Source of the DNA: Erythrobacter aurantius
GTDB taxonomy: Bacteria > Pseudomonadota > Alphaproteobacteria > Sphingomonadales > Sphingomonadaceae
Length of the DNA: 64,000 nt
Assembly (NCBI RefSeq): GCF_023823125.1
Contig: NZ_CP090949.1
Coordinates: forward strand, 3,248,001-3,312,000
Direction of reading: 5' to 3'
This document shows, in pieces, positions 2,858-28,910 of this stretch. Every line of letters starts with the position of its first letter. Positions within the stretch are counted from its first letter, which is position 1. Both the position numbers and the translations under genes were made by a program. Under the pieces are notes generated by a model that worked only from the letters and a program-made list of their open reading frames with translations, did no database searches and was not told the DNA's origin.

Positions 2858-2945
2858 TGCGGCGGCATTCGGCGTTTTCCTACATCGCCACAATAGGTTA
2901 GGCTGGCGTCGGTTCTTTCAAATCGTGGACAGCAAAGCCAAACGA

Positions 2946-22281: not shown

Positions 22282-22626
22282 TCACATCACCTTGTCGGGG
22301 CGCGCGTCGTGCTTGTGCCGCGCTTCCTTGCCCAGCACCCGCTCAAGCCGCTGCGCCATGGTGTTCGCCGCCTTGCGCGCCGCATCATCCACTTTCGAGG
22401 CATGCTCGGTCACGCCGATCGGACGACCGCCACGCGGGCGCGCCTCGATCGTGCAGGTCTTGTCATCGGCGCCATGCTTGTGCGCGTTTTCGTCGGAGAC
22501 ATGCACTTCCACCCGCGTCAGGCGATCCTCGAAGCGGGCGAGCTTGTCGCGCATCATCGCCTCGATCCGGGTCGCAACGTTCTCCGTACCCATGACGGAA
22601 CTGTCGGAGTTGAACTGGAACTGCAT
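22282..22626 (-). CDS. HPF/RaiA-family ribosome-associated protein
   Basis: A 114-residue protein with the fold pattern of ribosome hibernation factors. It opens with FQFNSDSSVMGTENVATRIEAMM, a strand and amphipathic helix, followed by FEDRLTRVEVHVSDEN and TCTIEARPRGGRPIGVTEH. The tail is basic and His-rich. The start is fixed by AGGAGAG six bases before the ATG; upstream extension to 22773 lacks support. It is the short form without the dimerisation domain, and would bind the small ribosomal subunit under stress. The end lies 34 bases from the convergent photolyase-like gene. Confidence 0.85.
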   Translation of the reverse strand: MQFQFNSDSSVMGTENVATRIEAMMRDKLARFEDRLTRVEVHVSDENAHKHGADDKTCTIEARPRGGRPIGVTEHASKVDDAARKAANTMAQRLERVLGKEARHKHDARPDKVM

Positions 22627-22795
22627 GGAATGCTCTCCTATCGTTGTCGTTGCCGATGGCATCATCGGTGTCATCCAATGTGGGCATTTCGGCGTGTAAT
22701 GCCAGCACTTTCGGCGCCGGGTTGAAGGATATGCGACGGGCCGTTTTCCAACAGGATGGAACGGGTGGAACACGGTCCTGAAGAAAAAATCGTGG

Positions 22796-22934
22796 AAGTG
22801 TCACCCTTTGTGCGCAAAGCGTCACCTTACGTGCGAAAGTGTCACCCAAAGCCGGGAAAGTGTGACCCGAATTCGCGAAACTATGACCATTCGCCGGGGC
22901 AGAGTGTCGCCTTTGCAGGGGGGCAAGTGTCACC
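22796..22934 (-). repeat. Array of seven degenerate GGTGACACTT units, about 21-bp period
   Basis: On the plus strand the units read AAGTGTCACC-like and begin at 22796, 22817, 22837, 22858, 22879, 22902 and 22925, with steps of 21, 20, 21, 21, 23 and 23 bases, about two helical turns each. The unit at 22925 contains the stop codon of the small HTH gene (AGGTGA). The steps are not all multiples of three, so this is not a protein repeat. Between units the sequence differs. It fills most of the 303-base stretch between the HTH gene and the HPF/RaiA gene. Function unknown; possibly a multi-site DNA-binding array. Confidence 0.75.
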
Positions 22935-23205
22935 TCGACAGCCCCTTCGCCAGCAGCGGATGGACGCGCCTGCCCTGCCGCTCAGAGGCACGCCGGGCCC
23001 GCGCCTGCTCCAGCGCAATGTTCCACAAATGCGCAAAATGCGGCGCGCGCTGTCGAAGGCGATAGGCGGCCTGGCGGCTCATCCCGACAGATCGCGCTGC
23101 AGGCGCAACCTTGCCGGAAACGGCCAGCGCCCTGAGAAAGGCTGTAGCCCTTTCGGCAGTCCAATGGGTGTTGTCAGGGGTGGATGGGTACGGGTGTGTA
23201 CTCAT
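22930..23205 (-). CDS. Small helix-turn-helix protein
   Basis: A 91-residue basic protein. Residues 15-53 form a likely helix-turn-helix (WTAERATAFLRALAVSGKVA, then ARSVGMSRQAAYRLRQR), followed by HFAHLWNIALEQARARRA and an Arg-rich tail. It has no recognisable ligand domain. The stop codon lies inside the first unit of the GGTGACACTT array. It is 71 bases from the intradiol dioxygenase gene upstream. The HTH looks like those of small DNA-binding or terminase-small-subunit-like proteins; I cannot name a family. Confidence 0.75.
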   Translation of the reverse strand: MSTHPYPSTPDNTHWTAERATAFLRALAVSGKVAPAARSVGMSRQAAYRLRQRAPHFAHLWNIALEQARARRASERQGRRVHPLLAKGLSR

Positions 23206-23276
23206 CCATCAGGATAAGCCACAATTGCAGGCCTGTAGGAAAGGGGTGAGTTCAGCCCGCCCCTTCCCCATCTGCG

Positions 23277-26904: not shown

Positions 26905-28910
<2,006 letters not shown>

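Follow-up and report, generated by a model that had tools for sequence, protein, structure and literature searches.

Autoregulated transcription factors with multi-site operators have sites beside the factor's own gene and upstream of other genes; plasmid iterons are direct repeats about two helical turns apart, in several copies; and MITEs and other dispersed intergenic repeats are short, multi-copy, intergenic and mosaic. The array analysed here, which follows a small HTH gene, shares traits with each of these systems. Like a multi-site operator, it has putative sites by its own gene and upstream of others which change with the factor, but the sites number about seven, with recurrent unequal spacing, and also lie at convergent 3' ends. 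Like iterons, it consists of several direct repeats about two helical turns apart; unlike them, it occupies about 19 chromosomal loci, is unequally spaced and has a partner HTH protein of another family. Its elements are short, multi-copy, intergenic and mosaic as MITEs are, but they lie at orthologous positions with diverged spacers, and units and spacing are kept. The remaining comparison is with phage terminase small subunits (TerS) and their pac or cos sites (SPP1/SF6 type; PaMx11 and RcSimone-Hastad relatives), with which the locus shares the HTH homology, the repeats beside the gene and the many HTH units on one DNA segment. One report describes the SPP1 pac as three sets of direct repeats where the small terminase gene begins, and the single HTH domain of SF6 as having little sequence preference (PMC4737164); in another, the DNA binding of the GTA small terminase tested was weak and showed no sequence preference (PMC6854486). 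Unlike these systems, the gene found here is a chromosomal orphan near which no large terminase was found, the oligomerisation and TerL-binding part of TerS is unmatched in its protein, and about 19 arrays are dispersed over the chromosome. The literature searched holds no description of this array element.

The window, i.e. the whole stretch of 64,000 nucleotides that was analysed, contains the following features:
22285..22626, minus strand: HPF-like gene of 114 aa downstream of the head (Pfam PF02482, E 9.6e-8)
22744..22778 (core 22758-22778), minus strand: head, a promoter-like 9-bp direct-repeat motif, minus strand GGACCGTGTTCCACCCGTTCCATCCTGTTGGAAAA
22784..22789, minus strand: T6 run between head and array, read from the sequence
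22796..22934, plus strand: seven-unit array, unit AAGTGTCACC (minus strand GGTGACACTT), 17 bp from head to first unit
22930..23205, minus strand: small HTH gene of 91 aa (phrog_4044, E 7e-12, residues 12-75)
23212..23217, minus strand: TTATCC, putative -10-like sequence 17 bp past the TTTCCTAC box and 6 bp before the ATG
23235..23242, minus strand: TTTCCTAC box at the putative -35 position of the HTH gene, beginning nearly all elements

The seven units start at 22796, 22817, 22837, 22858, 22879, 22902 and 22925 (plus strand), with unit-to-unit steps of 21, 20, 21, 21, 23 and 23. Three of them carry AAGTGTCACC exactly, the weakest is the unit at 22879 (AACTATGACC), and the variable base is C in five units and G in two. 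Allowing up to 3 mismatches per unit and steps of 19-24, the longest chain in the 64-kb window has seven units, while 30 mononucleotide shuffles of the window reach at most three; isolated units are uninformative (36 window matches with up to 2 mismatches, 31.7 expected). The seven repeats reported in an earlier note are consequently real, and the helical spacing that it proposed is borne out by the steps of 20-23. Its two further observations also hold: the stop codon of the HTH gene (22930-22932, minus strand) falls inside the nearest, final unit, and the array is not coding, since the unequal spacing breaks the reading frame, which rules out a coding array. The feature reaches beyond the repeats, to the head core on one side and the box on the other, and an A/T run stands at the place equivalent to the T6 run in most of 28 own-genome copies (by eye). 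Elsewhere in the window lie a TPP riboswitch (28803-28908, minus strand, 63.5 bits) and a lone TTTCCTAC box (2876-2904, plus strand; -10-like TAGGCT 15 bp on) just past a gene end and ahead of a terminator-like hairpin (by eye), with neither array nor head.

The exact AAGTGTCACC has 39 matches genome-wide, against 1 for the reversed pattern control, which rules out a single-copy site of the HTH gene; 36 of the 39 fall in similar arrays and 3 outside. The own genome (G000) contains about 19 such arrays, 18 of which adjoin one of the 28 copies of the head motif GGAACAnnTGGAACACnGTCC found with 0-1 mismatch (4 further copies have 3 mismatches). Among the 18, the copy at 1430 kb has two clear units only; the array at 2243 kb stands apart from its head, and that at 903 kb, extra to the 18, has a decayed head. 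The far end is GTAGGA[AC] in 27 of the 28 head copies (20 by script, 7 by eye), which reads T[TG]TCCTAC in the HTH direction. The order of the element in that direction is TKTCCTAC, HTH gene or short leader, array, T run, head and next gene. The earlier note had taken array and HTH protein for a DNA-binding module serving autoregulation at the 3' end, as a partition-like site or as an anchoring site: the module is supported, and 3' autoregulation or a single anchoring site is too narrow, since most array copies lie alone between other genes. It had also named repeats at random sites of the genome as evidence against its reading; repeats do occur elsewhere, yet each time as one ordered element and often at loci that are conserved, which speaks for a role across the genome and not for chance. 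One other own-genome locus (C1:2905) has a TTTCCTAC element with a different ending, GTGTCGCCTTTGTCAACTT, similar to the head of G001.

The spacing of the units was compared in 41 arrays of at least 5 units from four genomes (G000, G012, G020 and G021; four odd regions excluded). The commonest steps from the head are 21 (20/41) or 22 (12/41), 20 (27/41), 21 (31/41) and 21 (27/41), followed by 23 (20/38) and 22 (15/25). The pattern is mostly 21-20-21-21-23-22 in three species, and the arrays of the fourth (G021) are shorter, with about 3-6 units that match it only in part; the same step order was found in Erythrobacter NAP1 and Qipengyuania citrea (L259). Where a head of one of the two searched spellings lies within 60 bp, as it does in 28 of the 41 arrays, it is always separated from the first unit by 16-17 bp; the other 13 arrays are outside this figure.

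Placed by their flanking proteins, the arrays form 11 groups at orthologous loci, each shared by two to four species. At least 10 of the 19 own arrays belong to such groups, a lower bound because the relatives' arrays were fetched only at strict three-unit pattern matches. In 13 orthologous pairs, 338/378 positions of the unit cores (89%) and 233/510 of the equal-length spacers (46%) are identical, the identity of the cores being inflated by their selection through motif match. The variable base of GTGT[N]AC at the orthologous loci, weak units left out, is C in 53/58 units of G000 and 15/22 of G021, G in 21/25 of G012, and A or G in 35/43 of G020; over all arrays, some false units included, the corresponding counts are 118/143, 28/45, 55/70 and 67/84. 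The base of G000 differs from that of G012 at a Fisher p of about 1e-13 and from that of G020 at about 6e-16, with sites that are not independent. Spacers differ between copies and between species, so copying of whole arrays is a poor explanation, and a trans-acting factor with a shifted preference fits. The recognition-helix residues of the HTH protein parallel the unit base: SRQ in G000 and G021 (C), SRE in G012 and L256 (G), and TRQ in G020 (A/G). This change of site with factor across species, as in multi-site operators, was found within the genus, with two exceptions: L255 (SRQ), whose units are mixed, and genus g59, with SRE and mostly another base. The two G units of the window array itself also depart from the rule. 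From these comparisons, the spelling of the repeat appears to have changed together with the HTH protein in related species.

Close orthologues of the short HTH protein (63-100% identity) are restricted to G000, G012, G020 and G021 among the 25 genus genomes searched, the others encoding weaker, mostly longer, HTH homologues or none. The array pattern matches the same four genomes out of 27, and none of the 23 others (G160 and G219 were in the array search and outside the protein search); this agreement has a chance of 8e-5 if genomes are independent, and rests on four genomes. The check proposed in the earlier note, whether arrays always follow the HTH gene in related genomes, was run: all four close orthologues in the genus have the array just downstream. 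In a motif-blind chain test at 80 GTDB loci, arrays were found behind 10 of 16 HTH ORFs shorter than 150 aa and in 2 of 62 longer ones, both of these inside the ORF (p 4e-7; the 150-aa limit was set after the fact and two of the 80 ORFs were left out as unmeasurable), and 0/80 shuffles reached the limit. A motif-guided look adds L256, L259 and partly L263, short ORFs only, and two of the three short ORFs that remain without array look frameshifted (by eye). In a tree of LpdA from 20 genomes, from which G020 (without a full LpdA copy) is omitted, G000 groups with G004, G009 and G018 (support 100/99) and G012 with G008 (support 100/96), G021 being placed elsewhere; G004, G009, G018 and G008 all lack both the array and the short HTH. 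Counted on the tree against two head-only genomes, two changes are needed, and one origin is still compatible.

Beyond the genus, the two-unit pattern AAGGNGAC, which may miss genomes with other unit spellings, was searched in 32 genomes: it matches 7 of the 12 with an array at the HTH locus, in 5 of those 7 also away from that locus, and 4 of the 20 others (G250, G251, G253, G255). in G250 a short HTH is accompanied by a partial array; the matches in G251 are doubtful; the distant G253 and G255 have clear arrays, and the sole HTH locus examined in each encodes a longer homologue. A three-unit pattern matched 11 of 199 family genomes; besides the own genome, only G164 and G222 have the true element, the other 8 being without the TKTCCTAC box. 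Short direct-repeat clusters, likewise without this box, occur at L166, L167 and L170 (GGGGTTTCACACACC, GGGTCCGATTAACACC and GTGGGATCACACACC).

The window protein has no Pfam match above cut-off. Its HTH domain is homologous to phage terminase small subunits, with a match that covers only columns 21-84 of the 180 of phrog_4044, the HTH part; the own long paralogues match the same profile at E 2e-18 and 8.7e-23. The AlphaFold2 model of the window protein (pLDDT 84.5, pTM 0.67) has a three-helix HTH and a long helix, one long and one short helix making up the part beyond the HTH, and the oligomerisation and TerL-binding domains of TerS have no counterpart in the profile match. One long paralogue matches 49 phage records, including PaMx11-like and RcSimone-Hastad TerS; the window protein matches 4, weakly (best E 2e-3). 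By sequence, no relative of solved structure was found at E up to 1, and the listed database names of the HTH protein are 'hypothetical', 'LysR family' and once 'ModE'. A tblastn search (E up to 0.01) with large terminase and portal queries from two phages, which recovered both phage controls, found neither in the 80 HTH loci (up to 3 kb on each side) nor at 16 own-genus loci. One peptide pattern found no relative of the HTH protein in IMG/VR viral contigs, giving no support to a viral origin of the present copies. By homology, the window protein is related to phage terminase small subunits, as a chromosomal orphan: it resembles the DNA-recognition domain of TerS and, judged by its context, is not a phage terminase subunit. 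Some long HTH ORFs contain a related 21-nt repeat in frame (L311, with QADAP-type peptide repeats; similarly L293 and L305, by eye).

T[TG]TCCTAC occurs within 300 nt upstream of 69 of the 80 HTH relatives (GTDB genomes) and in 19 of 1175 control windows; in 57 of those 69, the first in-frame start at least 24 nt past the box sits at 36-37 nt. The box is therefore probably, as far as its placement tells, the -35 position of a leaderless HTH gene. A sigma-70 consensus scan found no promoter in the window stretch, so the head is called a promoter here in a putative sense. A search of 24 other genus genomes found the head in 4. Of the 18 genus genomes whose HPF region was fetched, 9 have a short or long HTH homologue no more than 2.7 kb from HPF, and a tenth genome has one at 10 kb.

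Of the 28 own-genome heads, 19 point at the start of a gene (18 from Pfam, 1 small ORF by eye), 7 at a convergent gene end, and 2 were assigned to neither; the elements without a full array face a gene start in 10 of 10 cases. The genes whose starts are faced, assigned from Pfam and with any further gene names being our reading, include HPF, rplT (about 400 nt on), pdxH, a histidine phosphotransferase gene, folP, lpdA, moaC, rpsA, trpA, icd, ispG, genes of a PALP enzyme, M20, amidohydrolase, MOSC and saccharopine dehydrogenase-like proteins, a TPR gene (about 400 nt away, beyond what looks by eye like a tRNA) and a CHRD gene (at about 290 nt). The convergent ends are those of genes for an epimerase, ShlB, a RimO-like radical SAM protein, a thioesterase, an ABC protein, Ada/Ogt and DUF6702. 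Outside the genus, array elements stand before queE (two genomes), ispG (two), cysS, pyrC, a RelA/SpoT-like gene and ruvA (by eye).

Upstream of lpdA, TKTCCTAC is present in 9 of 20 readable genomes (of 24 fetched), where the element ends in GTGTTCCAT twice in four of the nine and, in one genome each, in GTGTCTC twice, in TGTCAACT twice, and in GTGTAACATG with an inverted copy; the remaining two have no clear ending. Across these loci (L181-L201) the head sequence varies by species and a 9-bp direct repeat or dyad is kept; from its spelling, it looks as if the factor binding the head also switches specificity. Heads stand before housekeeping genes in G002 and G015 as well (L099-L120, L154, L155), although neither genome gave an HTH match at E 1e-3 or an array (the G015 assembly is 82% complete), which implies another recognition partner for the head.

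Several other explanations of the arrays were weighed. Spread as MITE-like non-autonomous mobile elements between the end motifs TTTCCTAC and CCTGTAGGAAA, now decaying, would account for the inverted motifs TTTTCC[AT]ACAGG and CCTGTAGGAAA in many own-genome copies, for mosaic copies in which the HTH gene or the array may be present or missing, and for the similarity of three copies (903 kb, 1273 kb and 3000 kb). We consider it unlikely: no transposase was seen, the second (head) end motif is not retained in relatives at lpdA, and the arrays of orthologous loci in diverged species have the same spacing and diverged spacers, indicating selection rather than recent insertion. It is similarly improbable that the arrays are partition-like sites that anchor or fold the chromosome, despite their many-site clusters, their occurrence at convergent gene ends too, and 19 positions that are more even than random (CV 0.56, p 0.0055); much the same evenness is seen when all 29 elements, array-bearing or not, are taken together (p 0.0068), so it may follow gene layout, and the fixed distance to the promoter-like head is left unexplained. 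As to replication-strand bias, the GC skew of the scattered stretches was noisy.

Action as RNA, with the array read from the TTTCCTAC start and its repeated motif serving as a sponge, an attenuator or a leader, would agree with the promoter-like box that opens nearly every element and with the sense direction crossing the array. This seems quite unlikely, given that the window and 10 scanned loci have no Rfam match inside the element, that shuffles fold as well as the window array does (z -0.94), that no covariation of the spacer halves is seen from unit to unit (z -1.4, -0.6, 0.2) and that the near-exact spacing fits DNA better; an RNA family or conserved fold is thus without support, and a within-unit dyad was found in one register (z 2.8). 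Very unlikely, in our judgement, is packaging, in which a phage- or GTA-derived small terminase and its arrays would mark chromosomal DNA as pac-like sites. The HTH match to terminase small subunits and the array beside the gene, resembling the pac anatomy described for SPP1 (PMC4737164), speak for it; against it are the confinement of that match to the HTH part, the absence of large terminase and portal matches at the loci searched with two phages' queries, the lack of a relative in IMG/VR contigs by one peptide pattern, and the weak, unspecific DNA binding of the GTA small terminase tested in the source cited above. The mobile-element, chromosome-organising, RNA and packaging explanations are all weaker than the one in which the array is a target of the HTH protein.

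In this preferred explanation, which we regard as evenly poised between right and wrong, the array is a multi-site target of the small HTH protein, beside a promoter-like head that mostly faces housekeeping genes. Its best-supported step is the binding of the arrays by the HTH protein, which is probable from the array itself and from its recurrent spacing, orthologous conservation, genome-specific base and co-occurrence with the protein, all obtained by computation. Binding, wrapping, promoter function and the sign of regulation are what we infer. The small HTH protein would bind seven helically phased sites downstream of its own gene, where several protomers could form one complex in which about 150 bp of DNA is bent or wrapped. 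Between this complex and the head there would be 16-17 bp; we take the head to be the promoter of the gene behind it (HPF in the window, other housekeeping genes elsewhere), and the occupancy of the sites would tune that promoter; the array copy behind the HTH gene would also report the level of the HTH protein. Control of the neighbouring putative head promoter is the likeliest use of the arrays and may well be the actual one, but 7 of the 18 head-bearing arrays point at a convergent gene 3' end, where a promoter would be without obvious use. More tentatively, and with some doubt, a phage DNA-packaging protein of the TerS kind may have been domesticated with its pac-like array, the array having been copied to many chromosomal places and kept by selection as wrapped complexes beside housekeeping genes, with specificity changing on both sides.

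The arrays and the HTH protein suggest a previously unrecognised genome-wide DNA-binding system. If this explanation is true, Erythrobacteraceae and related Sphingomonadales would possess a DNA-binding system attached to core genes, which in the own or other genomes include HPF, folP, the rplT operon, moaC, ispG, queE and ruvA, and an orphan small-terminase relative would serve outside packaging. The genome-specific units would offer a compact test of a regulator and about a hundred sites switching specificity together, and, should the domestication reading be true, the family would provide a natural series of recognition switches from species to species.
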